Below are positions 3,330 through 58,579 of a stretch of 64,000 nt of DNA, piece by piece. Below the pieces are notes generated by a model. It ran no database searches. It was given only the letters and a program-made list of their open reading frames with translations, and was not told the DNA's origin. Where the stretch lies: contig NZ_CP036528.1 in the NCBI RefSeq assembly GCF_004331915.1, forward strand, positions 2,710,273-2,774,272, read 5' to 3'. The stretch comes from Ureibacillus thermophilus. GTDB lineage: Bacteria > Bacillota > Bacilli > Bacillales_A > Planococcaceae. The translations under genes were made by a program, and so were the position numbers. How positions within the stretch are numbered: position 1 is the stretch's first letter; each line of letters starts with the position of its first letter.

Positions 3330-3336
3330 TGTGAGA

Positions 3337-3370: not shown

Positions 3371-3411
3371 GTGCGTCAAACAAAGCTGCCTGCAGGAAAA
3401 GTTATGCATAA

Positions 3412-3456: not shown

Positions 3457-3477
3457 CGTTTTCAAAAATTAAATAAA

Positions 3478-3735: not shown

Positions 3736-3826
3736 ATCACTTTCCACACCCTTTCTACACCGTTCATCACATTTTTATATTTATCTTATCGAAATTATAT
3801 GAAAAGAACAATGCGGTTCTTAGAAA

Positions 3827-4774: not shown

Positions 4775-4797
4775 ACAAGCCCCCCCTCTCAAATTTT

Positions 4798-5751: not shown

Positions 5752-5769
5752 CCAAACAATCCTCTCTCT

Positions 5770-6651
5770 TTATGAACGGATATCCCGGTGCGTGACCTCC
5801 GTATGATATTTTTTTCTAAAATATTTTCCAAAATATTCAGTTAATGTAACCGAACGATGTTGACCGCCTGTGCAGCCAAAGGCAATCACTAATTGCGGTT
5901 TTCCCTCTTTAATGTATTGCGGAATAATAAAGTCAAATAAATCTTCTAATTTTTTGATTAAAGTTTTGGTTTCATCCATGTTATAAACATAATCGTAAAC
6001 TTCTTGGTCCAATCCCGTTTTATTTCTTAATTCTTCAACATAATATGGATTATTTAAGAATCTTACATCAAAAACTAAGTCTGCATCAATAGGTATCCCG
6101 TTTTTATACCCAAAAGACACCACATTAATCGAGAATTTAGGACTTGAGGAAAGGGAAAATTCTTCTGTAATGCGTTCCCTGAGTTCACGGGGCTTCATTT
6201 TGGAAGTATTGTAAATATAATGGGCTCTTCCCTTCAATTCTGACAGCATTTCTCTTTCTTTTCTAATGCCGTCAAGAGGAAGTCCGCTGGGTGCTAACGG
6301 ATGCTGCCGTCTTGTTTCTTTATATCTTCTCACCAACGTCTCATTATCGGCATCTAAGAATAAGATCCGCGTTTTGACGCTTTTTTCTTTCTCCAAAGTG
6401 TCAAGAGCATCAATGAGGGAATTGAAAAATTCTCCGCCGCGCATATCCATAACAGCAGCGATTTTGGAAATTCTTTTTTTCGATTGTTTCATTAATGCTA
6501 AAAAAGTGGTTAATAATTTAGGAGGCAAATTATCTATACAATAATAGCCCATATCTTCAAAACTTTGAATGGCTACAGTTTTTCCTGCACCAGACATGCC
6601 AGTAATGATGACTAGCTCATGTTCATATTCTCTTTCATCTTTTTCATCCAT
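5770..6651 (-). CDS. rapZ: RapZ-family nucleotide-binding protein (YvcJ)
   Basis: This P-loop protein of the RapZ/YvcJ family binds and hydrolyses GTP or ATP; in B. subtilis YvcJ affects competence. The P-loop GMSGAGKT lies near the N-terminus, and the C-terminal domain has the signature [12 protein letters not shown] place the start at the ATG at 6651, nine bases after AAGGAG; an ATG three codons earlier touches that site. It overlaps the yvcI stop by 8 bases, which suggests coupled translation. The whole yvcI-rapZ-yvcK-whiA-crh order matches B. subtilis, where yvcN follows; yvcN is absent here. Confidence 0.95.
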
Positions 6652-7135
6652 TTGATTCATCTCCTTCGATTAATTCCATCGAAGTTTGGTATTTGGCCTC
6701 TATCAATTCATAATCCTTTGTATATATGCATGTTCCGTATTGAATGCCTTTATTTAATGCAGCAAACAACAGGATTTTCCGGTCTCCTTCCGCCATTGGA
6801 AGGTGGTGAAGATCTTGGATTGGACGCCATTCTAAAATACCTTCTCTATTTTCCTTATCTGGTGTTCCTTCCACACCTGTTGCTACAAAAGTGAATAGCA
6901 TCCATTCTTCAATAACTTGGTCGCCGTCTTTAACAACAATTGTATAAACCCCTTTTAAATGGGCATTTTTAGGAGTAACATTCGTCTCCTCTTGGAATTC
7001 TCTTACTGCAGATTCAACGATGGATTCACCGCTCTCCATTTTTCCGCCGGGAGCGACGTACCATCCTCTTCTCGGTTTTTTCAGAAGAAGCACTTGTCCA
7101 TCTTGTATTGCTAATAAGTTGGCTATTCTTTGCAT
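6644..7135 (-). CDS. yvcI: Nudix hydrolase YvcI
   Basis: This is a Nudix hydrolase of the 8-oxo-dGTPase/MutT-like group. The full Nudix box is visible as [20 protein letters not shown] followed by ETNV, with the metal-binding REFQEE glutamates. Its substrate is unproven. The ATG at 7135 lies six bases after GAGGTG; a GTG at 7144 is part of that site. It heads the operon that runs to crh. Confidence 0.92.
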
Positions 7136-7267
7136 AATCGACACCTCAAATCTTTGTTACTCCTGCTCATTATTATACCTTGACTCGTCATTTCGTTACA
7201 AAATAATCCTTTTACAAACAATCTATAATTTCAATTTTATGATTAGAAGCACTTTTGTATAATTATT

Positions 7268-7302
7268 GAAAAAAAAAGTTGTTTCCAAAATGGAAACAAC
7301 TA
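7268..7302 (-). terminator. trxB terminator
   Basis: On the minus strand GTTGTTTCCA pairs perfectly with TGGAAACAAC and is followed by nine T. It lies about 85 bases past the trxB stop, which is rather far. Confidence 0.8.
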
Positions 7303-7387
7303 AAAACAAACTAAAGGGGGGTTAAATTCTAATATTATTATACCCCAATTCAATAGTAAAAAAAGTTACAATAAAGTTAATTTCTCG

Positions 7388-8359
<972 letters not shown>

Positions 8360-45058: not shown

Positions 45059-45275
45059 TTTCTCCACCCCTTTATTTTTCTGTACCCTATTAACTTCGAC
45101 CCGTATAAAAAAATTCCTCTTCCTTATTGAAAATCCATTAAAATTGAAGTAGATTAATACAAATATTTCATTAAAAACACGAATATTATTTTGTATTATC
45201 TGTATTAACGTTCGTCAATTATCGCTCAATTAAAGCGTTTTCATTTCATTTATTTAATTTTATTGCGGATATGAG

Positions 45276-45305
45276 TTGACAAACATGAACAATTCAGTTT
45301 ATTAT
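45276..45305 (+). promoter_or_regulatory. serA promoter
   Basis: A perfect TTGACA box lies 18 bases from TATTAT, just upstream of the T-box leader. Confidence 0.75.
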
Positions 45306-45324
45306 GTAGTCACATTGAAATAAT

Positions 45325-45596
45325 AGTCAAAATATTATGACGGAGACATGCTCTTGCGTTCAGAATCTAAAGAGAGCTGATGGTTGGTGCAAATCAGCGT
45401 TTCTGGCGTCAGTAGTTCCACTCCTGAATAGAAAGGCCGAAATTGCAGTAAGCCATTTCCGGGTAATGCACGTTACGCATCACTTGAGGCTGTCGGAATT
45501 TTTTATAAACTTTCGGCAGTGAAAAAGGGTGGTACCGCGTAAAGTTGATAAGCAGCTTTTCGCCCCTTACATTGTAGGGGGTGGAAGGCTTTTTTT
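45325..45596 (+). promoter_or_regulatory. T-box riboswitch upstream of serA
   Basis: The leader has the conserved T-box parts: the AG-rich bulge region AGAGAGCTGATGGTTGGTGC in Stem I, the T-box sequence GGGTGGTACCGCG at 45527-45539, and an intrinsic terminator at 45554-45596 (GCTTTTCGCCCC against GGGGGTGGAAGGC, then seven T). Uncharged tRNA bound here would favour the antiterminator. The specifier is probably TCC (45417-45419), a serine codon, which fits serA downstream; this position is my reading and less certain than the rest. Confidence 0.93.
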
Positions 45597-45720
45597 AATA
45601 CTTCGAAATGAAAGGAGTATTTTTTATCGAAAATCTTTAAGAATTTTTCGATGTTTCGACGTTGTATTGACACCTATCATTCGAGAATAATTAATTAAAA
45701 AGCAAAAAGGAGTTTTTCAG

Positions 45721-47340
45721 ATGGTAACAAAAGAAACTACAGCTACAGATGTAATTAAAGTATTTATTGCAGATCCATTAAGCGAAGATGGTATTTTCCC
45801 ATTGCGTGAAGAAAAAGACTTAAACTTGGAAATTATCATTGACACTGGCAACTCTCAAGAAGAATTGATCAAAAAAATTAAAGATGTAGATGCTTTAATT
45901 GTGCGCAGTGCGACAAAAGTGACACGCGAAGTTATTGAAGCGGCTGAAAATTTAAAATTAATTGGCCGCGCTGGTGTTGGAGTAGACAACATCGACCTAC
46001 AAGCTGCTACTGAACGAGGAATTATCGTCGTTAACGCACCAGACGGAAACACAAACTCTGCTGCTGAACATACAATTGCCATGATGACTTCTCTTGCTCG
46101 CCATATTCCTCAAGCTTATCTATCTTTGAAAAACGGCAAATGGGACCGCAAATCTTACGTTGGGGTTGAATTGAAAAACAAAACATTGGGCATTATCGGT
46201 TTAGGCCGCATCGGTACAGAGGTGGCATTCAGAGCAAAAGGTCAACGCATGAACGTCATGGCTTATGACCCATTCTTAACGGAAGAACGTGCAAAAGAAT
46301 TGGGTGTAACAAAAGCAACAGTTGACGAAATTTGCAAAGAAGCAGATTTTATTACAGTGCATACGCCTTTATTGCCTGAGACAAAAAATATGATCAACAA
46401 AGAAAAATTCGCTTTAATGAAACAAGGCGTTCGCATTATTAACTGCGCTCGCGGCGGAATCATCAACGAAGACGATTTATACGATGCGATTGTAGAAGGT
46501 AAAGTAGCAGGTGCTGCTCTTGACGTATTCATTGAAGAACCTGCAACTGACCATAAATTACTTACATTGCCGCAAGTGATTGCAACACCTCACTTGGGAG
46601 CTTCAACTGTGGAAGCGCAAGAATCTGTAGCAGTGGATGTTTCGAAAGACATTATTAAATACTTTAAAACAGGTACTGTCACAAACCCTGTCAATATGCC
46701 TTCTATTCCAAAAGAATTACTTGCAGAAGTTGAGCCATTCTTTGAATTAGCTGAAAAACTTGGTTCTTTCTTATCTCAAGTAACAACTGAGCCATTGAAA
46801 GAAATTAACCTATACTATGCTGGAGAAATCGCCAATTTCGATGTGCGTCCACTGACAGCAAATGCGTTAAAAGGCTACTTAAAGAAAACACATGGCGAAA
46901 ACGTGAACGATGTCAATGCACGCTATTTAACTGAACGAAACGGCGTTAAAGTGAATGAAAACAAAACAACAACTGCTAAAGGATTTACAAACTTGATTAC
47001 AGTTGAAGTCAAAACTTCAAATGAAACACATTCTGTGGCTGGTACATTATTAAACGGCCTTGGCGCTCGTATCGTAAAAGTGGAAAACTTTGTAGTGGAT
47101 GTTGTTCCAGAAGGCCACTTATTATACATTCGAAACATTGACAAACCAGGTGCAATCGGCCGCGTAGCTACAAAACTTGCTGAAAAAGATATCAACATCG
47201 CCACAATGCAGGTAGGCCGCGAACGTGTAGGCGGTTCTGCTGTCATGATTCTATCTATCGACAACGAAGTAACTCAAGAAGACTTAGTGTACGTATCTCA
47301 ATTAGAAAACATCGATGAAGTAAAAGCTATTACGCTATAA
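45721..47340 (+). CDS. serA: D-3-phosphoglycerate dehydrogenase
   Basis: SerA oxidises 3-phosphoglycerate at the head of serine synthesis. The NAD-binding motif LGIIGLGRIGTEVAFRAKG, the catalytic Arg in INCARGGIINEDDL, and the active-site His in ATPHLGASTVEAQ are present. An allosteric intervening domain and a C-terminal ACT domain (LYIRNIDKPGAIGRVATKLA) follow. At 539 residues it is slightly long, with about 12 extra residues at the N-terminus. It is controlled by the upstream T-box. Confidence 0.97.
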   Translation: MVTKETTATDVIKVFIADPLSEDGIFPLREEKDLNLEIIIDTGNSQEELIKKIKDVDALIVRSATKVTREVIEAAENLKLIGRAGVGVDNIDLQAATERGIIVVNAPDGNTNSAAEHTIAMMTSLARHIPQAYLSLKNGKWDRKSYVGVELKNKTLGIIGLGRIGTEVAFRAKGQRMNVMAYDPFLTEERAKELGVTKATVDEICKEADFITVHTPLLPETKNMINKEKFALMKQGVRIINCARGGIINEDDLYDAIVEGKVAGAALDVFIEEPATDHKLLTLPQVIATPHLGASTVEAQESVAVDVSKDIIKYFKTGTVTNPVNMPSIPKELLAEVEPFFELAEKLGSFLSQVTTEPLKEINLYYAGEIANFDVRPLTANALKGYLKKTHGENVNDVNARYLTERNGVKVNENKTTTAKGFTNLITVEVKTSNETHSVAGTLLNGLGARIVKVENFVVDVVPEGHLLYIRNIDKPGAIGRVATKLAEKDINIATMQVGRERVGGSAVMILSIDNEVTQEDLVYVSQLENIDEVKAITL

Positions 47341-47353
47341 TGCAGCAAAAAGC

Positions 47354-47388
47354 AGGTAAAGGGATTCTCCTTTGCCTCTTTTTTTATA
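47354..47388 (+). terminator. serA terminator
   Basis: AGGTAAAGG pairs with TCCTTTGCCT and is followed by a seven-T run. Confidence 0.85.
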
Positions 47389-47404
47389 TAATTTTCTATC
47401 CCAT

Positions 47405-47512
47405 GACGATTATTGCTTCGATTTATAAGCGATTTTTTTATTTCCTCAATTCTGGCGATTATCCGTTGCTTTTTGGCGATTATTTTCATCCTTCTGGCGA
47501 TTAATATTCCTT
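47405..47512. repeat. 21-bp degenerate repeat array 1 (GGCGATTA units)
   Basis: Between serA and the YteA-like gene the motif GGCGATTA recurs at 47454, 47475 and 47495, that is every 20-21 bases, with weaker copies upstream (GACGATTAT at 47406). No gene is seen here. Confidence 0.7.
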
Positions 47513-47559
47513 CCCTTTAATTTTGATTTTTCTGTTCATACTATGTTCGAAAGGATGTG

Positions 47560-48246
47560 ATGACGATTTTAACCGAAAAACAAATTGCCAAATTGAAAAA
47601 GCAGCTGATTGAAGAAAAACAAGCCTTACAGAAAAGTTTATCAAAGGATGAAGAAGCCTTTGATAATGGCAGCTTGCGGGATTCTGTCGAGGAATTATCA
47701 ACGGTCGACAACCACCCTGCCGACTTGGCGACTGAACTGTACGAACGGGAAAAAGACCTTTCCTTGAAAGTTCACCAAGAAGATGAATTGTCGAAAATTA
47801 ACGCCGCTTTGGAAAAAATCGAAAAAGGTACATATGGATTGTGTGAAGTTTGCAAAGAACCGATTCCATATGATCGTTTAGCGGCCATTCCATATACATC
47901 CTTCTGTATTGAGCATGCCGAAGCGAAAGAAGCGCCAGCAGATCGCCCTGCAGAAGAAGATTTGATGAGACCGCCAGTGGATAATTCTTTTGCTGAACGG
48001 GAGATTGATGGAGCAATCCAAGATTATGAAGATACATTCCAGGTCGTTGCAAAATACGGGACTTCGGAAACACCATCGGATTTCGAAGGGGATATTGAGG
48101 ATGTGAACGAACTTTACGATGACCCTGAGGAATATGCAAATAATGATGAACCTCAATCCTTCCATGTATCGTTGAAGGATGAAATTCCTTTCCCTATGAC
48201 GAAACGGGAAATTGAGGAAGCGAGTAAATATGATTATTTGGAATAA
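47560..48246 (+). CDS. YteA-family TraR/DksA-type zinc-finger protein
   Basis: This 228-residue protein has a coiled-coil N-terminus (LTEKQIAKLKKQLIEEKQAL) and a DksA/TraR-type zinc finger with Cys95, Cys98, Cys116 and His119 (GLCEVCKEPIPYDRLA). A long acidic tail follows. The family is typical of Bacillus sporulation-associated YteA proteins and may bind RNA polymerase or stay free; the function is unproven. The ATG at 47560 follows AAAGG. Confidence 0.85.
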   Translation: MTILTEKQIAKLKKQLIEEKQALQKSLSKDEEAFDNGSLRDSVEELSTVDNHPADLATELYEREKDLSLKVHQEDELSKINAALEKIEKGTYGLCEVCKEPIPYDRLAAIPYTSFCIEHAEAKEAPADRPAEEDLMRPPVDNSFAEREIDGAIQDYEDTFQVVAKYGTSETPSDFEGDIEDVNELYDDPEEYANNDEPQSFHVSLKDEIPFPMTKREIEEASKYDYLE

Positions 48247-48321
48247 ATAAAATAATTGATGCTTTTCTAAAAAGTACAAGCCAGGGCGCTACTCGGACAA
48301 AAAAACACCCGCAATAATCAA

Positions 48322-48358
48322 GGCCGTCCGGAAAGTCGAAAACTTTCTAAACGGCCCA
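48322..48358 (-). terminator. Probable terminator of the HAD phosphatase gene
   Basis: On the minus strand GGCCGTTTAGAAAGT pairs with ACTTTCCGGACGGCC. The T run is short (TTGATTATT). Confidence 0.55.
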
Positions 48359-48367
48359 TTATTTTCA

Positions 48368-49159
48368 TTATGAAATTTTTTCTAGCAGCTGCAAAAATTC
48401 CGTTAAAGAAGTTACTTCATAAGTAGGCACGATATCCGGATTTTTTGGTTTATTTTCTCGATTAATCCAAACATTTCGCATGCCTACCCGTGATGAACCT
48501 AAAATATCCGTATTCAAATTATCGCCAACCATAATGCCTTCATCAGCCGTGATGCCGGCTTTTTTCATCATATATTCAAAAAGAGAAGGATCCGGTTTTC
48601 CTTTTCCAAAATCTCCTGAAATAATCACATGGTCAAAATATGGACGAATTTCCGGCGTCATCTCTAATTTCAAATTTTGCAAGCTTGGCGCACCATTTGT
48701 CAGAAGCACTAATTGGTACCTACCTTTCAATGCATCAAGCACTTTATACGTATCTTCATAAACAAATGGATATTTTTTCCGTTCTTCCACGAAACGTTCG
48801 CCCAGTTCGGCACCTAAAGCTTCATCATCAATGCCCAATGTTTTTAATCCCTTTGTCCACGCATCTTTTCGATATGTAGGCACGATTTTTTTCATTTTTT
48901 GAAAGGATTCTGTTGGGTCATCAAAAGTTCCCCATAAACCTTCAAACGGGTTGATGCCGATTAATACGGTGTAATCATAAGTTTCATAAGATTCATACAA
49001 TTTTCGTGCTTCTTGTCGAACTGCTTCCTCCAATTGTACAGGATCGAGTTCATATTTTGTTGCTGCATACTCGCAAGTTTTTTCAAAAGCGGTTTTTATG
49101 CTTTTTTTATCCCAAAGCAACGTGTCATCTAAATCAAATACGATTGTAGTAATTGCCAT
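48368..49159 (-). CDS. HAD-superfamily hydrolase (YjjG/YsaA-like)
   Basis: This 263-residue HAD phosphatase has motif [11 protein letters not shown], motif [11 protein letters not shown] and motifs [19 protein letters not shown] and [13 protein letters not shown]. The cap domain is all-helical. It resembles nucleotide or sugar phosphatases of the YjjG type, but the substrate is not known. The ATG at 49159 follows GGGGAAG. Confidence 0.87.
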
Positions 49160-49271
49160 TTCCAACTTCCCCTATTAGTTTTTTGTCACATTTTCTATTC
49201 TAACAATCAAATGAAACTTTATAAAGACTCATTCGTATGAATTGTAAATATAATTGAAAGGAGTTCCACCT

Positions 49272-49883
49272 ATGCTAAAAAAATTTGCATCCGATGCCCT
49301 TGGTTTATCTGATATAGGAAAAGTGATCGAGCCACAGGATTATGATAAAACCGATTCGGATGATTATGTACTGCATGAAATCGGAGAAAAAATTTATTTT
49401 CTCATCAAAACAAGAGCCGATGAATATTGCTTTACAAATTTGGCGTTAATTCATGTGGACGGCGATTTGGCTGTCAGCAAAAAACGCACGTTAAAAAGAT
49501 ACGAATACAAATGGAACCCAATCAGCAACGTTTCTTTGGAAACAGCAGGAACGATCGATTTGGATGTGGAGATCAAATTTACAATCGGGAATACACCATT
49601 CAGCATCGATATCAATAAAAACGAATTGGACAAAGTGAAAGATTTGTACAAAGCGCTCGTTGAAATGGAACGCATCATGAAATCCAATGAAAAGTATATG
49701 AAATTTGCCCAAGACAGCTTGGAATATGCGCAAAAAAGCATTTCAAACGGCATGTCGCAAACTTCACCGGCTGAATCCTTCAAAGCCATTGCCCAATTTA
49801 CAAATGAATGGTTAAAGGATATGAACAATCAATACGCTTATGACGACTATGGCAGCGTGTTTGAATTGTTCATCAATAATTGA
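49272..49883 (+). CDS. PH-domain protein (YvbH-like)
   Basis: This 203-residue cytoplasmic protein has an N-terminal bacterial pleckstrin-homology-type domain (ALIHVDGDLAVSKKRTLKRY, then YEYKWNPISNVSLETAG) and a helical C-terminal half. It resembles YvbH of B. subtilis, of unknown function. The ATG at 49272 follows GAAAGGAGT; an ATG six codons upstream has no site. Confidence 0.75.
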   Translation: MLKKFASDALGLSDIGKVIEPQDYDKTDSDDYVLHEIGEKIYFLIKTRADEYCFTNLALIHVDGDLAVSKKRTLKRYEYKWNPISNVSLETAGTIDLDVEIKFTIGNTPFSIDINKNELDKVKDLYKALVEMERIMKSNEKYMKFAQDSLEYAQKSISNGMSQTSPAESFKAIAQFTNEWLKDMNNQYAYDDYGSVFELFINN

Positions 49884-49889
49884 TTCATG

Positions 49890-49941
49890 GAAAACGGCAA
49901 TAATGCCCTCGAGTTCTTTTCGTGGGCGTTATTAATAAATA
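49890..49941 (+). terminator. Hairpin between the PH-domain and RDD genes
   Basis: AATAATGCCC pairs with GGGCGTTATT across a loop of about 16 bases. It has no strong T run, so termination is only possible. Confidence 0.4.
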
Positions 49942-49953
49942 ATGAGGGGTGAC

Positions 49954-50349
49954 ATGATGAAAGAATTGACAAAAAAACGGTTAAAAGCTTGCGCCATCGA
50001 TTTAGCGATATCTACCGCTCTTACCTTTGGCATTGAATATTTGTTGCGAAAAAAGGTGAAAAGCGAATTTGTACATAATGTGGTGACACCGACTGCCGTA
50101 TTTTGGGGATTGGAATACGCCCAATTCAAAAATAGCGGCCAGACGATCGGCTATAAAATGATGGGGTTGAAGCTTGAAAGAGAAGACGGTTCAAAACCGA
50201 CATGCAAACAAATTCTAAAACGCAGCGCTTATCGCGATACCCTTGGTCTTTTTTCCTACTTGAACAACCGGGAAGCTTATGAAGGGGAAGACGGCTCGAG
50301 ACTTGCCCAAGACCGTTTTGCCGGAACAGTTGTAAAGGAAATAGAGTGA
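49954..50349 (+). CDS. RDD-family membrane protein
   Basis: This 131-residue protein has an N-terminal hydrophobic segment, the RDD-type Arg and the loop GQTIGYKMMGLKLEREDG. The C-terminus (LAQDRFAGTVVKEIE) is like that of RDD domains, a family of uncertain function linked to ion exchange. The ATG at 49954 lies after GAGGGGTG. It lies 70 bases past the PH-domain gene. Confidence 0.75.
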   Translation: MMKELTKKRLKACAIDLAISTALTFGIEYLLRKKVKSEFVHNVVTPTAVFWGLEYAQFKNSGQTIGYKMMGLKLEREDGSKPTCKQILKRSAYRDTLGLFSYLNNREAYEGEDGSRLAQDRFAGTVVKEIE

Positions 50350-50391
50350 TTTCCTCATCAAGATTCTTTTTCCCGCACTAACAAAGAAAAA

Positions 50392-50422
50392 GGGCTGGCT
50401 AATTTCTGCCAGCCATTTTATT
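50392..50422 (+). terminator. Terminator of the RDD gene
   Basis: GGCTGGC pairs with GCCAGCC across an 8-base loop and is followed by ATTTTATTA. Confidence 0.75.
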
Positions 50423-50451
50423 ATCGTGAAAAGCGAATACTTTGAAGATTG

Positions 50452-50640
50452 ATATTCACCAAAATGTTGACTATTATCGCCGGATTCGGAATTTGTATCA
50501 CCAAAATTGTGAACATATTCGCCAATCGTGAAATTTCATCCCTTGATTATAGCGATAATCGCCAGTAGTAGGCAGTTAATCGCCAATTCCTATTGCATTA
50601 TCGCCAAAAGGCTTAACTTAATCGCCAAACTGTTATTTTT
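50452..50640. repeat. 21-bp degenerate repeat array 2 (TAATCGCCA units)
   Basis: About nine units of 21 bases run from 50452 to the hemZ stop region. They include TTATCGCCG, GTATCACCA, TATTCGCCA, TAATCGCCA, TAATCGCCA, TTATCGCCA and TAATCGCCA, each followed by 12 variable bases. The core is the complement of array 1. It fills the space between convergent RDD and hemZ genes. Confidence 0.85.
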
Positions 50641-52147
50641 TCAATTCCACCCCATACAACTGATCCAACATCTCAATTTTTTTCTCGATAGCCCCTTCAA
50701 AAGAAGCAATATATTGGAAAGGTTCTTTTGGATTGTAGTATTGGGTAATTGCTCCGGTTTCCGGATTAACGAATTTGGAAGCGGCGCCGCATCCGATTCC
50801 TATGATCGTCTGCACTTCTTCCATTATCACGATATTGTAGATGCTTTCGTCACCAGGCTTTGAATACCCCACATTTTCCAAATTCCCTAAAATATTTTTT
50901 TGGCGGTACAAATAATACGGATGGTAGCCATTCTCGCGAGTCCACTCCTGAGCCATCTCCATCATCCGTGACACTGTTGCCCGATCAGCCACCTTATACT
51001 TTTCCTTATTTCTTGTCATTTCCGATGCCCGTTTGAAAGACAGTGTATGCACCGTCAATGATTCCGGCATTATTTTTTCCGTCTCATCCAACGAATGCTG
51101 GAATTCTTCAATTCCTTCATTCGGCAACCCGATAATTAAATCCATATTGATATTGTTCATGCCTGAATTCCGGGCCAGCCAAAACTTATCAATGGTCTCC
51201 TGCACAGAATGATGGCGGCCAATTGCTTTCAATGTTTCATCCGTATAACTTTGCGGATTCACAGAAATGCGGTCAATTCCCCATTTTTTCAGCACTTCGA
51301 GTTTCTCCAACGTAATCGTATCTGGACGGCCGGCTTCCACCGTTATTTCCCGGATGTTTTCCGGATTCGGGAAGGATTCATACATCGTTTGATAAAGGGC
51401 ATCCATCTCCTCTGCTTCAATGGATGTCGGTGTACCTCCCCCCCAATAAACCGAAGTCACTTTCATATTATTTTCCTTCAGCCATTTTCCAATTTCCCTC
51501 ATCTCAATATGCAATGCATCAAGGAAAGTTGCCACCCTACCCGTTTTTCGGTTCGGCGCGATGGCATAAGCAGGGAACGTGCAGTAAGCGCATTTTGTTG
51601 GGCAGAAAGGAACTCCGATATAGATGGACACTTCATTCCCAATTTCATCTAAATCAGGAATGGTGGCAAGTTGCCTCTCTACAATTGATTCCAATAAAGA
51701 AATTTTCTCATCGGATACGCGGAAATCTTTTTTCAAAACTGCACGTATTTCATCGCGGGATAGCCCCTCTTTTCTGAATTTATGATAAAGCTTTGTGGGA
51801 CGGATGCCGGTTAAAATGCCCCATTGCTGCTTGATGCCTGTATATTGTTCCAATACGTCCAACAGTACATGGGACAATGCCCGCTTCATGCGTATATTTT
51901 GCTCCCGTTCCGTTCCATCAGTGTCGTATTCTTTTGAATAAGTGCAGACATAAGTTTTTCCGTCCACTTCTAATTGGCATGCAGTGGAATAGACGTTGTT
52001 TTCTATTTTATATTGAAAATGAACAGATAAATCAGGATTATCTATCGATTCACATAGTTTACTATCTTCAAAAAATAAATTGGCGATATGGGTTAAAACC
52101 TGAATCCAATCTTCTTTGAAACGTTCGTGAACTAAAATTTTTTTCAT
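50633..52147 (-). CDS. hemZ: Oxygen-independent coproporphyrinogen oxidase-like protein HemZ
   Basis: HemZ is a radical SAM enzyme of the coproporphyrinogen dehydrogenase group, 504 residues. The iron-sulfur motif CPTKCAYC gives Cys182, Cys186 and Cys189. The core also has YWGGGTPTSIEAEEM, ITVEAGRPDTITLEKL and NMDLIIGLPNEG. In B. subtilis hemZ has a role in anaerobic haem synthesis. The N-terminal 110 residues are specific to HemZ. Its 3' end runs into a 21-bp repeat array. Confidence 0.94.
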   Translation of the reverse strand: MKKILVHERFKEDWIQVLTHIANLFFEDSKLCESIDNPDLSVHFQYKIENNVYSTACQLEVDGKTYVCTYSKEYDTDGTEREQNIRMKRALSHVLLDVLEQYTGIKQQWGILTGIRPTKLYHKFRKEGLSRDEIRAVLKKDFRVSDEKISLLESIVERQLATIPDLDEIGNEVSIYIGVPFCPTKCAYCTFPAYAIAPNRKTGRVATFLDALHIEMREIGKWLKENNMKVTSVYWGGGTPTSIEAEEMDALYQTMYESFPNPENIREITVEAGRPDTITLEKLEVLKKWGIDRISVNPQSYTDETLKAIGRHHSVQETIDKFWLARNSGMNNINMDLIIGLPNEGIEEFQHSLDETEKIMPESLTVHTLSFKRASEMTRNKEKYKVADRATVSRMMEMAQEWTRENGYHPYYLYRQKNILGNLENVGYSKPGDESIYNIVIMEEVQTIIGIGCGAASKFVNPETGAITQYYNPKEPFQYIASFEGAIEKKIEMLDQLYGVELKK

Positions 52148-52214
52148 TCATACCTCTTCCTTTGATCTGTCTTTCAACTGAACTTTATTTTAACAAGCAT
52201 ACACGGATTAATCC

Positions 52215-52248
52215 AATAAAAAAAGACCACACCTTTTCGTGCGGTCAA
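52215..52248 (-). terminator. yheB-yheA terminator
   Basis: On the minus strand GACCGCAC pairs with GTGTGGTC across a 6-base loop and is followed by seven T. Confidence 0.85.
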
Positions 52249-52260
52249 ATGGACATGCTC

Positions 52261-52605
52261 TTAGAGTCCTTCATAAATAGATTGAATCGGTCTAATCAAT
52301 GAACGATTCAAATCGTCAATCAAGCGGCTTAATGCCATTTCTGCATCAAACAACGCTTTAATTTTCAGATTTTGTTCTGCTAGTTGAAGAACTTTTTGGA
52401 AGTAGAAGTATTCCTCTTCCTGCAATTCTTCCCCTTGCATCTGCATTTGCTGCAATTTCAATTGTGCATTGCGGAATTGTGTGAAAATCGTTCTTGCTTC
52501 ATCATCATTGCGAACGACTTCAACCGCTCCTTTTAACTGTTGAAATTCTTCCGTTTGGCTAATGGAAGCTTCTACCTGTTGGATGGTTTCCATAAAATTG
52601 CTCAT
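52261..52605 (-). CDS. yheA: YheA/YlbF-family protein
   Basis: This 114-residue helical protein is of the YlbF/YmcA/YheA family (DUF964). It has the family pattern SISQTEEFQQLKGAVEVVRN and FRNAQLKLQQMQMQGEEL. Relatives form the RicAFT complex with RNase Y, but YheA itself is uncharacterised. I take the ATG at 52605, after AGGAATG. It is paired with yheB, as in B. subtilis. Confidence 0.88.
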   Translation of the reverse strand: MSNFMETIQQVEASISQTEEFQQLKGAVEVVRNDDEARTIFTQFRNAQLKLQQMQMQGEELQEEEYFYFQKVLQLAEQNLKIKALFDAEMALSRLIDDLNRSLIRPIQSIYEGL

Positions 52606-52624
52606 TTTATCATTCCTATTCATA

Positions 52625-53767
52625 TTAGTTTAACAATTGTACAATCAAGCCTTGTACGATACCAATCAATCCACCTAAAAACCCGCCTAAAAAAGTAATC
52701 ATCATTAATTCTCGGCTGGCAATACCCACGACTATCTCTTCCAACTTTTCAATTGGGAAAGAATTCACTTGCTCGCGAACGACTTCTTTTATATCTAAAC
52801 GTCTCAGTACATCTTCCAGATGAATTTCAGCAATTTCCAAAGCTTTATCCACAACTTTAGGCATTATCTCATACTTTACCCAATCGTGTCCATTTGGAAA
52901 GTAGTAGTGGATTGTTTTATTTAACCGATCTTCAATGGCTAATTCCTTTTTCGCGTAGGATTGGATATTCATTAGTATTGGTTCTAATTGTATATCATTT
53001 AAGTATGTCATGATAGGGCGTTTTTTAATTTTTTCCCATTCCTCATTTAGAATATTCACGATTGAATTTTTTGTTTCTGATGAACGGAGAATGCGGACAA
53101 GCTCATGTTGAATTTTGGCAACAATAGATGAAGAATCGCTTAAAAACATTTGAAAAATGCCGCCGAGCGTTCCTTTGGAAGCAAGAAAATCATCCAACAG
53201 ATTTTTAATGGTGATTTCTCCTTTGGAAGATAAAATATAATCTTCCCCTTTAAGAAGCAAAGTGTCCACTAATTGAGGAACTTTTTGATCGACTGACTTC
53301 ATAATCTCTTCCGGTACGACTTCTTCAATTGGTTTCGTGGTCAGCTCTTGTTTAAAATGAAGAAATTGCTTTTCAATAAAATCATCCACTCGTCCTTCGA
53401 CTTTTTCAGGTACATTTTTGAATCCGGCAAGCCCCAGCCATTCTTTCAATGTTCGGTTATTTAAAAAAATGATTTCTTCGACTTTTGTTTGTGCAAACTG
53501 CAAAATGACAAAACGAATTTCGGGTGAGAATAATTTATTTTTGATGACATCCGGCGTAAGTAGGTAATCATTGACGGTAACTCCAATTTGTCTTGCCAAT
53601 TCCCCACGCCGTTTTGGAATTAATCCCGGCGTAAAAGGAAGACGCCATTTTCCAATATACTTTGCTTGATACGGTCTAAAAATCATTTTAATGGCGAGGA
53701 AGTTTGTTGCACTGCCGATGATTGCTCCGATAATTGCCATAAAGAGTATTACGAATGCTGTCTTCAT
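52625..53767 (-). CDS. yheB: DUF445-family membrane protein YheB
   Basis: This 380-residue protein has one N-terminal and one C-terminal membrane segment with a long helical part between, the DUF445 layout. The N-terminal pattern IGAIIGSATNFLAIKMIFRP and C-terminal FLGGFLGGLIGIVQGL are typical. Its function is unknown; relatives are spore-associated or linked to the envelope. It starts after AAGAGGATTTAC. Confidence 0.87.
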   Translation of the reverse strand: MKTAFVILFMAIIGAIIGSATNFLAIKMIFRPYQAKYIGKWRLPFTPGLIPKRRGELARQIGVTVNDYLLTPDVIKNKLFSPEIRFVILQFAQTKVEEIIFLNNRTLKEWLGLAGFKNVPEKVEGRVDDFIEKQFLHFKQELTTKPIEEVVPEEIMKSVDQKVPQLVDTLLLKGEDYILSSKGEITIKNLLDDFLASKGTLGGIFQMFLSDSSSIVAKIQHELVRILRSSETKNSIVNILNEEWEKIKKRPIMTYLNDIQLEPILMNIQSYAKKELAIEDRLNKTIHYYFPNGHDWVKYEIMPKVVDKALEIAEIHLEDVLRRLDIKEVVREQVNSFPIEKLEEIVVGIASRELMMITFLGGFLGGLIGIVQGLIVQLLN

Positions 53768-54018
53768 GTAAATCCTCTTTTCTAAAAACTATGATTTTCC
53801 ATTATATCAAAAGGTTCTTTAGGAAAAAAATAATTGTACCTCTTTCAGTACGATTTTACTTTATAAATTGTTTCATTTCGCGGGATTTAAATTTTTAAAG
53901 AAAATTGCATACTATATAATGTAGAATGACTCACAATCTTCTGAAAATTTCAGAGACGATAATTTGTATTTTTACAAAAAATGCGTTATTATTATCTCAT
54001 TGAAATAAATTTTTTTAT

Positions 54019-54065
54019 AGGAGGTGTACTCCTCTATTCACCCCTCATTCGGGCGTGGTATGAGG
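54019..54065 (+). promoter_or_regulatory. Structured leader at the CNNM-type gene
   Basis: AGGAG pairs with CTCCT (54019-54034), and CCTCAT (54043-54048) pairs with ATGAGG (54060-54065), which contains the presumed Shine-Dalgarno GAGG. The GAGGTG at 54021 can alternatively pair with the CACCCCTC at about 54040. The first and second structures may therefore be exclusive. The rest of the gap from 53768 holds a TATAAT box near 53930 but no clear -35. Confidence 0.45.
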
Positions 54066-54072
54066 AAAGTAT

Positions 54073-55422
54073 TTGGACGGAGACATAGTAGGGCTGACCA
54101 TTAAGTTAGCAATTTTTGTCTTATTAATTTTACTTTCAGGATTTTTCGTTGCGAGCGAGTTCGCAATAGTGAAAGTACGTGCAACGCGTATTGATCAACT
54201 TGTAGAAGAAGGAAACAAAAAAGCAATTAAGGCTAAAAAGGTAATTGATAACCTTGACGAGTATTTATCTGCTTGTCAATTAGGTATTACCATTACTTCA
54301 TTAGGTTTAGGTTGGTTAGGGGAACCTACCGTACAAATTTTATTGAGTCCAATATTTAATTGGATTGGCATAACAGGACCTATATCTGAAGTTCTTTCAT
54401 TTATTATTGCATTCAGTATAGTAACGTATATCCATGTTGTGGCAGGTGAATTAGCGCCTAAAACGTTAGCGATTACAAAAGCTGAATGGGTAACACTGAA
54501 TCTTTCAGGAGCGCTGTATACATTTTATAAGGTAATGTATCCTTTCATTCACCTTTTAAATACGTCTGCTCGCGGCTTGGCAAGAATTTTCGGTGTAAAA
54601 TCATTTAACGAAACCGATACAGCCCATACGGAGGAAGAGCTTCGTATGATCATGGCAGACAGCTTTAAAAGCGGTGAAATTAAATATTCAGAATTCGAAT
54701 ACGTAAACAGTATCTTTGAATTTTCTGATCGCACGGCGAAAGAAATTATGGTGCCGCGAACAGAAATTTCAGCGATTGATAAAGACGTAAAGTTAAAAGA
54801 TGTATTTGAAGTAATGGGTGTCGAACAATATACCCGTTATCCGGTCATTGATGGAGATAAAGACCATGTGCTTGGACTAGTTAACTTAAAACATCTATTA
54901 ACGGCGTATATACAAGATCCTAAAAATGCAGATAAACCGATTACAGAATATATGCAGCCGATCATTCGAGTAATTGAAACTGTTCCGATTAGCGACTTAT
55001 TATTGAAAATGCAGCATGACCGTATTCACATGGCGATTTTAATGGACGAATATGGGGGAACTTCCGGTTTAGTAACCATTGAAGACATCATCGAAGAAAT
55101 CGTCGGCGATATTCAAGACGAATTCGACGAAGATGAAATCCCTGAAGTTCAAGAAATCAGTGATGGTCATTATATTATAGATGCAAAAATGTTAATTGAA
55201 GATGTCAATGAATTGTTAAATATTCATATTAATGACGAAGATATCGATACAATCGGTGGTTGGTTCTGGACTCAACGCTACGATGCTGTTGAAGGTGACA
55301 GCTTTGTATATGAGGGATACGAATTCAAAATTAAAAAATTGGATGGTCATCACATTTTATACATTGAAGTCATCAAATTGCCAGAAGAACAAGAAACAAA
55401 TTTATACTCAATTGCCGAATAA
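54073..55422 (+). CDS. CNNM/CorC-family transporter-like protein (HlyC/CorC)
   Basis: This 449-residue protein has the layout DUF21 (four membrane segments, residues 1-190), two CBS domains (about 210-340: IMVPRTEISAIDKD and YTRYPVIDGDKD, then MDEYGGTSGLVTIEDI) and a CorC_HlyC end. Relatives such as YugS, YhdP and MpfA take part in magnesium or manganese efflux. The TTG at 54073 lies after GAGGAAAG. Its leader has RNA structure that may hide the ribosome site. Confidence 0.9.
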   Translation: MDGDIVGLTIKLAIFVLLILLSGFFVASEFAIVKVRATRIDQLVEEGNKKAIKAKKVIDNLDEYLSACQLGITITSLGLGWLGEPTVQILLSPIFNWIGITGPISEVLSFIIAFSIVTYIHVVAGELAPKTLAITKAEWVTLNLSGALYTFYKVMYPFIHLLNTSARGLARIFGVKSFNETDTAHTEEELRMIMADSFKSGEIKYSEFEYVNSIFEFSDRTAKEIMVPRTEISAIDKDVKLKDVFEVMGVEQYTRYPVIDGDKDHVLGLVNLKHLLTAYIQDPKNADKPITEYMQPIIRVIETVPISDLLLKMQHDRIHMAILMDEYGGTSGLVTIEDIIEEIVGDIQDEFDEDEIPEVQEISDGHYIIDAKMLIEDVNELLNIHINDEDIDTIGGWFWTQRYDAVEGDSFVYEGYEFKIKKLDGHHILYIEVIKLPEEQETNLYSIAE

Positions 55423-55436
55423 CATACTTTAAATAC

Positions 55437-55474
55437 CGAAACGACTTTCTTCTAGTTGGAAGAAAGTCGTTTCG
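55437..55474 (+). terminator. Hairpin after the CNNM-type gene
   Basis: CGAAACGACTTTCTTC pairs perfectly with GAAGAAAGTCGTTTCG. The following T run is broken (TCGTGTTTT), so it may be a terminator or a processing site. Confidence 0.6.
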
Positions 55475-55507
55475 TCGTGTTTTGGACTTTTGTAGGGAGG
55501 AAAAATT

Positions 55508-56380
55508 GTGGAACTATATACAAATTTACGAGCAGGGGAAAAAGGTGCCTGGCTCTCCATTGGAACATACATTTTTCTTAGCGCGGCAAAACTTATAATT
55601 GGATATATTGGAAATTCAGAAGCCCTAAGAGCGGATGGACTGAATAATTCAACGGATATCATTGCATCGATTGCCGTTTTAATTGGCCTGAAAATTTCCC
55701 AGCGCCCCCCGGATAAAAATCATCAATACGGTCATTTGCGTGCAGAAACGGTTGCATCCTTAATCGCATCTTTCATTATGATGGCAGTTGGTTTAGAAGT
55801 AATCTTTAATTCTATCATGAACATTTTTAACCCTGTTCGTGAAACACCATCCACTTTAACCATCTATGTTGCCCTAGGTTGCGCTTCTGTCATGTATGTA
55901 GTCTACCGTTACAATTTAGCGCTTGCCAAAAAAATTAAGAGTTCTGCACTTAAAGCTGCCGCCTTTGATAATCGTTCTGATGCCTTGGTGAGTGTTGGAA
56001 CAGCCATCGGGATTTTCGCAGCAATCATCGGTTTTTCAATCCTTGATACGATTACCGCCCTCATCATTGGAATTATAATTATAAAAACCGCTGTTGAAAT
56101 CTTTTGGGAATCTGTGCAAACTTTGACCGATGCCTTTGATACAGAAGATATTGAAACATTGTCTACCTTGATAAAAAATGTGGATGGAGTTATTAGTTTA
56201 GTGGATATCAAAGGAAGAACGCACGGAAATGCAACATTCATCGAAGTAACTGTTACGGTAAATCCTTACTTGAATGTATGGGAAAGCCACCACATTACAG
56301 AAAAAATTGAAGAAACAGTTAAAAAATTTGATATTAATTGTACAGTTCTTGTACATATTGAACCTCATGAGAAAAAATAG
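55508..56380 (+). CDS. Cation diffusion facilitator
   Basis: This is a CDF-family metal exporter of 290 residues with six membrane segments and a cytoplasmic C-terminal domain. The first metal-site motif ADGLNNSTDIIAS and the second, FDNRSDALVSVG, have the expected Asp/His-type residues. The metal (Zn, Mn or Fe) cannot be assigned. The GTG start follows GGGAGG. It lies after the CorC-type gene, so the pair may serve divalent-metal export. Confidence 0.9.
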   Translation: MELYTNLRAGEKGAWLSIGTYIFLSAAKLIIGYIGNSEALRADGLNNSTDIIASIAVLIGLKISQRPPDKNHQYGHLRAETVASLIASFIMMAVGLEVIFNSIMNIFNPVRETPSTLTIYVALGCASVMYVVYRYNLALAKKIKSSALKAAAFDNRSDALVSVGTAIGIFAAIIGFSILDTITALIIGIIIIKTAVEIFWESVQTLTDAFDTEDIETLSTLIKNVDGVISLVDIKGRTHGNATFIEVTVTVNPYLNVWESHHITEKIEETVKKFDINCTVLVHIEPHEKK

Positions 56381-56390
56381 AAGATGCAGT

Positions 56391-56435
56391 AGGTTGTTTA
56401 AAGCCGATACTTGCGGTTTTTAAACAACCTTTTTA
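56391..56435 (+). terminator. CDF gene terminator
   Basis: AGGTTGTTTAAA pairs perfectly with TTTAAACAACCT, with CCG/CGG inside the loop, and is followed by five T. Confidence 0.9.
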
Positions 56436-56469
56436 TATCCTTTTGTATAAATATAAACTTTTTTGGGGG

Positions 56470-56738
56470 AGGTTACTCCTTCATTTAGTATGGATACAAC
56501 CAAGTTTGGAGCGTTTGCTTCCTCATTTCGTGCGTTTATTACTCCATTTCGTGCGGATACTGCCTCGTTTCGTGCGGTTGCTCCTCTCTTTTGTGCGGAT
56601 GCATCCTCATTTCGTGCGTTTATTACTCCATTTCGTTCGTGCGTTTACCTCCCCATTTGGTGCGGATACTGCTCCCTTTCGTGCGTTTACCTCCCCATTT
56701 CGTGCGGATACTGCCCCCTTTCGTGCGTTTACCCCCAT
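56470..56738. repeat. 21-bp degenerate repeat array 3 (CATTTCGTGCG units)
   Basis: At least ten near-identical units of 21 bases follow each other; examples begin CATTTCGTGCGTTTATTACT, CATTTCGTGCGGATACTGCC and CCTTTCGTGCGTTTACCTCC. One unit is 25 bases because of a 4-base duplication (TCGTTCGTGCG). Two weaker copies lie at the left. The array fills the gap between the CDF gene and the convergent response regulator. Confidence 0.9.
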
Positions 56739-56744
56739 TGTTTA

Positions 56745-56792
56745 CAAAAAAAGAACAAAACTAGAAACCAAATCGTTCCTAATTTTGCTCTT
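56745..56792 (-). terminator. Terminator of the yhcYZ-like operon
   Basis: On the minus strand AGAGCAAAATTAGGAA pairs with TTCTAGTTTTGTTCT and is followed by seven T. Confidence 0.85.
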
Positions 56793-56803
56793 TTTTCACT
56801 AAA

Positions 56804-57451
56804 CTACTTCCCGCTTCCTTCAGTCAATCCATGTTTAACGGCATACAAGGCGGCTTGCGTCCGATCTTGCACTTCAAGCTTTGTGAAAATATTGGAAATA
56901 TGGGTTTTTACCGTCTTTTCGGTCACATAAAGGGATGCGGCAATTTCCCGATTGCTTTTTCCTTTTGTCAATTCTGCCAGCACCTCTTTCTCCCTGGGCG
57001 TTAACGGGTTTTTAATATGGGGCAAATTTTCTTCCTCTTTCAACGTTTCTTCGAGCTTTGTCGTCGCCGCCGGATGCATAATGCTTTCACCGCGCATTAC
57101 TTGCCGAATGGAATTCACTAAATCGTCCGGTTCGATATCTTTCAATTGATAGCCAGCCGCCCCTGCTTCAATGGCTGGAAGGACATGGTCTTTATCGGAG
57201 AAGCTTGTCAGCATTAATACTTGCACTTTGGGCCACTGCGCTTTGATTTTTTTCGTTGCCTCAATTCCATCCATCTCCGGCATCACTAAATCCATTAAAA
57301 CAATATCCGGTAATAGTTGTTCCACTAATTGAACGGCTTCCATCCCGTTTTTTGCTTCCCCAACAACTTCAATATCCTTTTGGGTTTTTAAGAAAAACTG
57401 CAATCCCCTGCGAACGACATGATGATCATCCGCAATTAATACTCGAATCAT
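56804..57451 (-). CDS. NarL-family response regulator (YhcZ/AirR-like)
   Basis: This 215-residue regulator has a receiver (LIADDHHVVRRGLQFFLKTQ, phospho-acceptor Asp in IVLMDLVMPEMDG) and a LuxR-type HTH (LTPREKEVLAELTKGKSNRE). It follows its kinase by 12 bases. The pair resembles YhcYZ of Bacillus and AirSR of Staphylococcus. Confidence 0.92.
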   Translation of the reverse strand: MIRVLIADDHHVVRRGLQFFLKTQKDIEVVGEAKNGMEAVQLVEQLLPDIVLMDLVMPEMDGIEATKKIKAQWPKVQVLMLTSFSDKDHVLPAIEAGAAGYQLKDIEPDDLVNSIRQVMRGESIMHPAATTKLEETLKEEENLPHIKNPLTPREKEVLAELTKGKSNREIAASLYVTEKTVKTHISNIFTKLEVQDRTQAALYAVKHGLTEGSGK

Positions 57452-57463
57452 CTACTTCCCTCC

Positions 57464-58579
57464 TTAATAAGGCAACCGAACAAATAATTCTGTACCTTTT
57501 CCAATTTCTGAAACCCATTCCGCCGTACCGCCGAGCGCTGTTGCCCGATCGCGGATAGATTGAAGACCCATTGAAGGAAGTTTTGCATCTTGATCGATTT
57601 TAAATCCTCTTCCTTCGTCTTTAATCACAAGTAAAATATCTGTTTTCGTCACCGTAAGATAAATGGTTGCTTCCTGTACGCCTGAATGCTTCCGAATGTT
57701 GTTCAAAGCTTCTTGGGCAATGCGGAATAACGTCTCCTCCACCCTTGAAGGAAATTGAATAACACCTGAAACATTAATGATGAGCTTCAGCTTTAACATT
57801 TCTGCATAGGCTTTGATCGCATCAATCAAACCGCTTTCCAATCCTTGAGGTCTCAGTTGCCAAATGAGCGCGCGCATTTCCGTTAATGCCGATTGGGTTA
57901 AATTTTGAATCTCTTTAAAGGTTTCCTTAATTTCTTCATCTTCTGTCATTTCCACTCCTGCCCGGGCTGTCAATGTGACGGAAAATAATAGTTGATTGAC
58001 AGAATCATGCAAATCACGAGCCAAACGATTCCGCTCCCGGACTAAAGCCATTTCCTGCTCTTGTTTCGTCAAGTAAATGCGTTTGATGGCAGAGCCAATT
58101 TGAAAAGCCACTGATTCTAAAAGTTCCAACTCTTCTTCCGTAAATTCAACGGTGTGGGGAGTTGCAACATTTAATATGCCAAACCGCTCATTTCCCGATT
58201 GCAATGGCACTGTTGCATGATGGGTAATTCCCCCGGTATCCCCCACCTGTCCTTCAATTGCATTCTCAATTCGTTGGCATTCAATAATGTTTGATGCTTT
58301 TTTCAACTGATCGCGCCTGAATCGGGAAACGCACCAACAACCACCCTTTTTTAAATATTGGCAGTCGTTGTAGCACAAACCATCCGGTAAATTTTCATGA
58401 ACGACGAGGTCAATTTTCCCTTTTTCATTAATAAAGAAAATCCATCCAGTGCTGAAATTCGTTCCCTTTAAAAGTTTTCTGAGCGCACCCTTTAACATGG
58501 GAATTAATTCTGTTTCTTCATTCAACAATTCTGCAATTTCTTTTAATAATGTTATGTTGGAATGATCATTCACTGCCAT
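57464..58579 (-). CDS. GAF-domain sensor kinase with a cysteine cluster (YhcY/AirS-like)
   Basis: This cytoplasmic kinase of 371 residues has an N-terminal GAF domain and a HisKA_3/HATPase core of the NarX type (RNRLARDLHDSVNQLLFSVT for the His, then GRGFKIDQDAKLPSMGLQSI). Cysteines at 69, 73, 81, 83 and 101 lie in GLCYNDCQYLKKGGCWC and after it, like the iron-sulfur GAF domain of AirS. It probably senses oxygen or redox state. It starts with ATG after CGAGGTG. Confidence 0.92.
   Translation of the reverse strand: MAVNDHSNITLLKEIAELLNEETELIPMLKGALRKLLKGTNFSTGWIFFINEKGKIDLVVHENLPDGLCYNDCQYLKKGGCWCVSRFRRDQLKKASNIIECQRIENAIEGQVGDTGGITHHATVPLQSGNERFGILNVATPHTVEFTEEELELLESVAFQIGSAIKRIYLTKQEQEMALVRERNRLARDLHDSVNQLLFSVTLTARAGVEMTEDEEIKETFKEIQNLTQSALTEMRALIWQLRPQGLESGLIDAIKAYAEMLKLKLIINVSGVIQFPSRVEETLFRIAQEALNNIRKHSGVQEATIYLTVTKTDILLVIKDEGRGFKIDQDAKLPSMGLQSIRDRATALGGTAEWVSEIGKGTELFVRLPY

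Follow-up and report, generated by a model that had tools for sequence, protein, structure and literature searches.

One may ask what a direct repeat of 21-bp period, filling the interval between two genes that point toward each other, does in a bacterial genome. The locus in question, array 3, lies in a stretch of 64,000 nucleotides of Ureibacillus thermophilus (contig NZ_CP036528.1, positions 2,710,273 to 2,774,272, forward strand), which is referred to below as the window and which holds two further arrays of the same period. A preliminary description, made from the letters of this DNA, considered three such arrays unlikely by chance and suggested that they may be structural or transcription-end elements. 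The analysis presented here leads to a tentative answer: the arrays may be rows of helically phased sites for a DNA-binding protein, and a satellite that survives past gene ends is the close rival of this reading.

Array 3 and Its Surroundings

Array 3 is a direct repeat, in which TTTCGTGCG returns every 21 bp and is continued by GATAC and TTTA in alternation; the consensus of its unit, termed class A, reads C-A-W-T-T-C-G-T-G-C-G-K-W-T-R-C-Y-N-C-C-T. When units are counted by register there are 12 of them, in agreement with the earlier estimate of at least ten, units 1 and 2 being degenerate and unit 8 measuring 25 bp, not 21 bp. The tandem repeat finder reported a period of 21 at 56511-56732 (10.4 copies) and a period of 42 at 56636-56733 (96% match), and the two alternating unit types described previously are both present, as GTGCG-TTTA and GTGCG-GATAC. 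The gap is indeed convergent, with a cation efflux gene on one side and a response regulator gene on the other (Table 1). Arrays 1 and 2 are built on a different core, ATAATCGCCA (class B), and all three arrays have the 21-bp step in common, as had been noted.

Terminator-like hairpins flank array 3 on both sides (Table 1). The whole array did not fold better than shuffled sequences on either strand (z 0.04 and +2.35), and it was rejected as an intrinsic terminator, since no hairpin with a T run was found within it. A search of Rfam over window positions 46000-58000, with E up to 1, returned three sub-threshold matches, none of them on array 3; a sub-threshold match to the ylbH leader (E 0.5, 50327-50424) lies directly before array 2. 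The one open frame of array 3 that was compared with Pfam (window 56443-56802) gave no match. Origin of array 3 from a mobile element was likewise rejected, as neither phage nor plasmid collections contain a match to it; in viral contigs 26 stretches carry one repeat pair each, which is taken as chance. Elsewhere in the window, the gap 45067-45721 contains GGTGGTACCGCG, presumably a T-box leader signature, and precedes a gene (45721-47340) which, judging from its own sequence, we take to encode phosphoglycerate dehydrogenase.

Table 1. Location of the features discussed in the text; positions refer to the window unless a locus label is given.
Feature	Position	Strand	Evidence
Array 3, 12 units of 21-bp class A repeat	56482-56738	+	Sequence read directly, tandem repeat finder, register count
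Cation efflux transporter gene, left convergent neighbour	55508-56380	+	Pfam PF01545 (E 3.2e-46), PF16916
Intrinsic terminator of cation efflux gene, between gene and array	56391-56435	+	Fold z -4.38, -18.0 kcal/mol; terminator scan agrees
Terminator-like hairpin, T run on each strand, between array and response regulator gene	56747-56796	.	Fold z -5.71; -21.4 kcal/mol on minus strand (terminator scan)
Response regulator gene, LuxR-type DNA-binding domain, right convergent neighbour	56804-57451	-	Pfam PF00072, PF00196
Array 2, 7 class B cores (ATAATCGCCA), spacings 21, 42, 40, 21, 21, 21, convergent gap	50447-50633	+	Class B core search
Array 1, 4 class B cores, spacings 21, 21, 49, tandem gap	47398-47509	-	Class B core search
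52-bp arrays, genomes G247 and G255	L183:7243, L177:10223, L192:14042, L204:16615, L205:12136		

The 21-bp Step Across the Genome

Of the genome, a single contig of 3,017,325 bases, 49% was sampled as 60 evenly spaced stretches (the systematic sample), 17 stretches chosen by repeat pattern matches, and the window. Local autocorrelation at lags 8-60 was computed on the systematic sample, with N runs (about bases 1-8000 of the contig) left out. This genome-wide scan, named beforehand as the test on which the proposal would stand or fall, revealed a large excess only at lags 21 and 42, with 65 and 64 scan windows respectively; none of the other lags has more than 6. Locally shuffled sample yielded zero scan windows above the periodicity threshold, and the pattern TTYCGTGCG-12N-TTYCGTGCG, with up to 2 mismatches, has 263+239 matches in the genome vs. 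0+0 for the reversed pattern, which excludes chance as the source of the regularity. In a scan that included masked N runs, lag 67 gave 121 scan windows vs. 94-104 at adjacent lags, perhaps because of a CRISPR array.

With an iterative 21-bp profile, 33 class A arrays were identified in the sampled 49%, composed of 615 units (3 to 64 per array), and 559 of their 582 neighbour spacings are exactly 21 bp; the others are 11 (1), 20 (8), 22 (1), 25 (1, in array 3), 41 (2), 42 (9), and 60 bp (1). Class B, with the core ATAATCGCC(A), comprises 13 arrays and 81 units, arrays 1 and 2 included, and 50 of its 68 spacings are 21 bp. Twelve of the remaining 18 measure 40-41 bp, because several arrays consist of modules of 3-4 cores at 21 bp followed by a 40-41 bp step; at the place skipped by steps of 38-42 bp no half-decayed core was seen (3 to 5 of 9 letters in 16/16 cases). 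Spacings that break the phase do occur (25, 34, 38, 39, 49, and 60 bp). Equal period with different cores, first remarked in the window, is thus a property of the genome, and the 46 arrays together occupy 15.2 kb of the sample.

The training set of the unit profiles consisted of cores that had a neighbour at 20-22 bp, and two such spacings were demanded of every class B array; core identity and spacing are therefore somewhat inflated, and only the lag scan is free of this bias. Outside arrays, which were masked in the systematic sample, single cores are found about as often as expected (GTGCGGAT 22 vs. 25.2; TTTCGTGCG 8 vs. 6.6). DNA uptake sequences of the Haemophilus type have a core that is over-represented in dispersed single copies, and this identity was rejected for the arrays on the same counts.

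Anatomy of the Repeat Unit

The class A consensus, CAWTTCGTGCGKWTRCYNCCT, is most strongly conserved at TT.GTGCG and at the T of position 14. Class B units are conserved over ATAATCGCCA and near-free elsewhere, the letters of ATAATCGCC being mostly kept in 83-96% of units. Accordingly, class B cores are 90% identical within arrays and 86% between arrays, and the spacers only 41 and 35%, where composition alone gives 30%. The gradient is less steep in class A, in which cores are 83% identical within arrays and 77% between them, and spacers 58 and 46% (composition alone, 32%). When changes private to one unit were counted in those 20 class A arrays that have 10 or more units (551 in all), 35 fell in the core (0.0091 per site-unit) vs. 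72 in the spacer (0.0163; p = 0.0045), a depletion of only about twofold. The largest share of the G+C variation along the unit belongs to the 10.5-bp harmonic in both classes (class A, p = 0.027; class B, p = 0.016).

The alternation of unit types is not peculiar to array 3. Throughout the 33 class A arrays, identity is 81% for units separated by two steps vs. 67% for neighbours: class A grows largely by 42-bp dimers.

Position Relative to Genes and Terminators

Gene context was established with a home-made caller (1396 genes, coding fraction 0.81), so that the context counts carry its error; 42 of the 46 arrays could be placed, the other 4 lying at ends of sampled pieces. The relation to convergent gene pairs that had been suggested for checking was found: convergent gaps hold 18 arrays, tandem gaps 20 and divergent gaps 4, and the convergent share (18/42) exceeds the 17% of non-array intergenic bases that belong to such gaps (p = 9e-5; reference taken from those systematic-sample gaps that measure 60 bp or more). 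Two arrays classed as convergent overlap called genes by more than 30 bp (583,465 and 1,745,146), and without them the count is 16/40 (p = 5.5e-4). The excess is weak if only the systematic sample is considered, with arrays in 7/104 convergent vs. 14/538 other gaps (p = 0.039). The deficit in divergent gaps is non-significant (p = 0.06). The statement that the arrays all lie in 3' regions was right as to tendency, since their median distance is 101 bp from a 3' end (n = 59) and 231 bp from a 5' end (n = 29), but too strong as a rule, given the tandem and divergent gaps among the 42.

What stands between gene and array is, as a rule, a terminator. The intrinsic terminator scan detected one at 45 of the 56 gene 3' ends that face arrays. 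At facing ends within 350 bp the count is 36/45 vs. 159/340 for length-matched segments at array-free ends (p = 1.7e-5; 29/369 control ends had no room for the length drawn), and the array begins a median of 30 bp after the T run (n = 36). Inside the arrays, terminator-like sites on either strand are found in 10/46, array 3 not among them, vs. 94/184 random array-free segments of the same length. In tandem gaps 10 arrays are sense and 10 antisense, which is as expected for a function of DNA and not of RNA. When origin and terminus are guessed from GC skew, 17/33 class A arrays follow the leading-strand direction, so no bias is seen, and 11/13 class B arrays do so (p = 0.02). A reading based on replication direction is at best weak.

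Turnover in Related Genomes

In named contigs, class B core pairs 21 bp apart occur in 21 stretches, among them Ureibacillus terrenus and U. thermosphaericus; the other 19, single pairs in unrelated taxa, are taken as chance. The flanks of one array match a U. thermosphaericus contig (494 bp at 99% identity, 1143 bp at 89%). Class A pairs of the form TTNGTGCG-13N-TTNGTGCG, with at most one mismatch, number 628 in this genome, 490 in the genus genome G251 and 0 to 21 in 23 other genomes of the genus. The strict class A pattern occurs in 5 of 261 genomes of the family, and a class A pattern had no match in the named genome collection, in which this genome itself is possibly not included. Class B pairs are present in 12 of 25 genus genomes, only five of which have more than three (48, 32, 19, 19, and 11), and in 5 of 398 genomes of the phylum sample, this genome included. 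In G654, from another family of the class, three TCGCCA pairs with 21-bp spacing were seen (C3:30890, C16:64575, C33:302058), which may point to class B-like arrays outside the family as well.

The fate of array 3 itself can be followed, because its neighbour, the response regulator, has a match with E up to 1e-60 in all 25 genus genomes, its own included. Among 22 loci with both genes, the gap between efflux and regulator genes shows local periodicity above 0.60 in four, each with 21 bp: this genome (0.76, with 42-, 46-, and 25-bp echoes), G251 (0.62), G247 (0.64), and G241 (0.83); none of the other 18 exceeds this value. The cores in that gap differ by species, namely GTGCGGATAC, a decayed form of GTGCGGATAC, CCCGACAC and CTAGACAC. 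About 3 units are left in the decayed G251 counterpart, and the gap is free of arrays in G253 and G254. In syntenic gaps of G251, no counterpart was found of array 1 (such cores being absent) or of the array at 1,001,517, and the array at 1,352,804 has a counterpart with changed spacers. Since arrays are lost, decayed or absent in orthologous gaps, no single one is essential.

The 64-unit array, whose right flank is 89% identical to G251 over 1.3 kb and whose left flank has no match, corresponds there to an array of about 2 kb with the cores TTTAGTGCGAATA and TTGGTGCGGAT, which ends in a run with the core CTTGCTCGGAT and keeps the 21-bp step. In 75-bp windows, array 2 shares 93-97% identity with its orthologue in G251, vs. 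64% just before it and 79-99% in the flanking genes; this may not be a property of the array, because the identity runs into the neighbouring gene (0.99).

Comparison of core profiles related class A to CTTGCTCGGAT (p 0.01-0.02) and CTAGACACTT to GTGGC..GATT (0 of 400 shuffles), and gave p 0.003 and 0.075 in two comparisons of CTTGCTCGGAT with GTGGC..GATT, so that some core families may be distant kin. No relation was detected between A and B (p = 0.165), A and CTAGACACTT (0.427), or B and CTAGACACTT (0.282).

In 20 systematic and two repeat-chosen stretches of G251, convergent gaps account for 3 of 6 intergenic arrays (p = 0.047), or 2 of 4 without the chosen stretches (p = 0.11). Four periodic stretches that overlap called genes were left out of this count; three are class A-like repeats, on which the gene call may be an array frame. 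By eye, such arrays are resembled by four of 8 lag-21 scan windows in G247 and by none of 3 in G255. In samples of about 400 kb each, these two genomes contain instead arrays of 52-bp units (27 and 47 lag-52 scan windows), each unit holding, by eye, an imperfect palindrome (e.g., GTCTCGT..ACGAGAC) that varies from array to array. Mixed 20- and 21-bp steps with 41- and 103-bp super-periods were observed at G256:C16:349475-350015, G236:C23:298405-298904, and G238:C2:684620-685060, with the cores TTTTGTGCAC and TTCGTGCG..TACGTGCG; in G256 the repeats form 41-bp dimers.

Possible Functions of the Arrays

The reading that we prefer, tentatively and at slightly less than even odds, is that the arrays are phased sites for a sequence-specific DNA-binding protein, placed in untranscribed DNA, where they would act as a structural boundary and would have grown by tandem duplication. 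Each array would be a run of candidate sites; as 21 bp correspond to two helical turns, the sites would face one side of the DNA, which could allow bridging or cooperative filling. The resulting protein-DNA patch would lie just past an intrinsic terminator, in DNA that is probably not transcribed, with an excess between convergent genes, and might hold the chromosome, take up supercoils or block leftover read-through. Duplication of 21- and 42-bp units would add and remove copies, so that copy number and spacers would change fast while core and spacing stay, and the preferred core would vary with the species.

This phased-site reading is supported by class B, in which core and step are kept while the spacers are near random, and by the presence of the same step in two core classes that have no detectable relation. 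It draws further support from the depletion of private changes in the core, the 10.5-bp harmonic, the terminators before the arrays, the convergent excess, the even split of orientations in tandem gaps, and the identity of array 2 with its G251 orthologue. Against it stand the selection of units by their spacing, the orthologous gaps in which an array is missing or decayed, the 42-bp homogenization of class A, as in an ordinary satellite, the modest size of the core depletion, the ordinary frequency of cores outside arrays, the phase-breaking spacings, the lack of such arrays by eye in G255, and the weakness of the convergent excess in the systematic sample.

The close rival, somewhat less probable in our view yet a serious possibility, is a neutral or selfish satellite that arises by local duplication, is homogenized by slippage and unequal exchange, spreads rarely, and survives in harmless untranscribed DNA past terminators; its 21-bp period would have been inherited from common ancestors and 42-bp dimers would be its usual growth unit. 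It explains growth, turnover and place equally well. The resemblance of units two steps apart, the range of copy number within one genome and the 2-kb array in G251, the gain, loss and decay between species, and the confinement of the strict class A pattern to a few genomes of the family are all as a satellite would have it; a refuge would also lie beyond terminators and away from 5' ends, and the possible kinship of CTTGCTCGGAT with GTGGC..GATT, significant in one of the two comparisons, points the same way. What it does not explain is the class B pattern, because drift should not keep core and step amid near-random spacers. Further arguments against it are that private changes are scarcer in the class A core than in the spacer, that three profiles without detectable relation have a common period, and that no comparable lag was seen in the sample of this genome.

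An extension of the phased-site reading, which we consider unlikely, is that helically phased nucleoprotein arrays mark or seal gene ends throughout the genus, the step and the place after terminators being kept while a fast-evolving DNA-binding protein and its core change together. With the same reservation, such arrays might be a bacterial analogue of satellite DNA together with the proteins that bind it, and the 52-bp palindromic arrays might be a second solution to the same task; 52 bp equal five turns at 10.4 bp.

It is improbable that the arrays work as mechanical elements without a dedicated protein, their phased A+T and G+C segments easing DNA wrapping, to the benefit of gyrase or general nucleoid proteins at places where positive supercoils accumulate from convergent transcription. 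Such a role would agree with the 10.5-bp harmonic of classes A and B, with the convergent excess and with the non-significant divergent deficit, but the cores, with most letters of ATAATCGCC so well kept, are stricter than bendability requires, and 20 of the 42 placed arrays lie in tandem gaps.

A transcription-end or RNA-level element, be it a Rho-dependent terminator, a 3'-end stabilizer or a small RNA, is very improbable. Proximity to gene 3' ends, a consensus strand of class A that is pyrimidine-rich and the leading-strand direction of class B speak for it; intrinsic terminators that already lie before the arrays, the folding of array 3 within the range of shuffles, the lack of an Rfam match on it, the balanced orientation in tandem gaps, and the scarcity of terminator-like sites inside arrays speak against it. 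The two alternatives offered in the preliminary description have parted: a DNA-structural role is the best surviving reading, and array 3 as a transcription-end element does not stand, for it is flanked by terminators, as arrays generally are preceded by them. That 21 bp encode seven codons of a peptide repeat is the least credible proposal: long open frames do run through the arrays, a Markov gene model placed 22 calls (21 distinct) largely in them, and the third codon positions of the plus frame HFVRILP are least informative, yet private changes in the 20 class A arrays are even over codon phases (48:49:46, sums of per-position counts), 20 of the 21 distinct calls lie on the strand opposite the array, where the HFVRILP frame is absent, steps of 20, 25, 40, and 41 bp break the frame, and the array frame tested is without a Pfam match.

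Either the arrays are a DNA-organizing element not described before, or they are a satellite of unusual regularity. The general expectation is that bacteria rid their genomes of repeats that do no work; in the sampled half of this 3-Mb genome, direct-repeat arrays take up at least 15 kb. Relatives share the step of these arrays more than their sequence, and the position of the arrays is linked to terminators. Should they be bound by protein, they would form a new class of elements that structure or insulate the chromosome; otherwise they would be a clean example, from nature, of how satellites arise and turn over in bacteria.

Comparison with Known Repeat Systems

No description of 21-bp intergenic arrays in Ureibacillus or its relatives was found in the part of the literature that is under open licence. 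Iterons of plasmid origins are direct repeats close to 20 bp in length, with a phasing that lets proteins bind along one side of the DNA. The arrays resemble them in constant spacing near a multiple of 10.5 bp and in a conserved core, spacing and identity being somewhat inflated by the way units were selected, and differ in that they occupy dozens of chromosomal loci, array 3 having no plasmid match. REP elements and BIMEs are also extragenic and present in many copies, and roles in supercoiling have been hypothesized for them; REPs are palindromic and alternate in orientation within BIMEs, whereas array 3 is a direct repeat without excess folding.

CRISPR arrays share the plan of a short repeat and a spacer of constant length, but their period is 58-81 bp in the range of one survey (PMC6344855), compared with a 10-bp core and an 11-bp spacer here, and class A spacers resemble each other. 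The same survey, made with SPADE, reports fixed-period tandem repeats in intergenic DNA, heptamers included (PMC6344855). The main text stresses 7-bp periods, and neither "21 bp" nor "21-bp" occurs in it; in the arrays the 7-bp harmonic has a minor share of power in class A (0.01) and 0.26 in class B.

In anatomy and dynamics the closest known kind are the STAR elements of Staphylococcus. These are direct repeats of intergenic DNA, in which a short core is conserved and the spacers, distinct for each locus, are conserved less; they expand and contract in copy number within a locus, are unevenly abundant among sister species, and have an unknown function (PMC3532100). The arrays, too, are intergenic and vary in copy number between loci, two of the 46 overlapping a called gene by more than 30 bp. 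Both features that define STAR by sequence are absent from the arrays: STAR has one GC-rich core of 14 bp, T(G/A/T)TGTTG(G/T)GGCCC(C/A), with at least 40 bp between cores (PMC3532100), whereas the class A and B consensus sequences differ from it, and the prevailing step in class A is 21 bp. What sets the arrays apart from STAR is that several core families coexist in one genus, that single arrays reach 64 units, or about 2 kb in a relative, and that their place is just beyond terminators.
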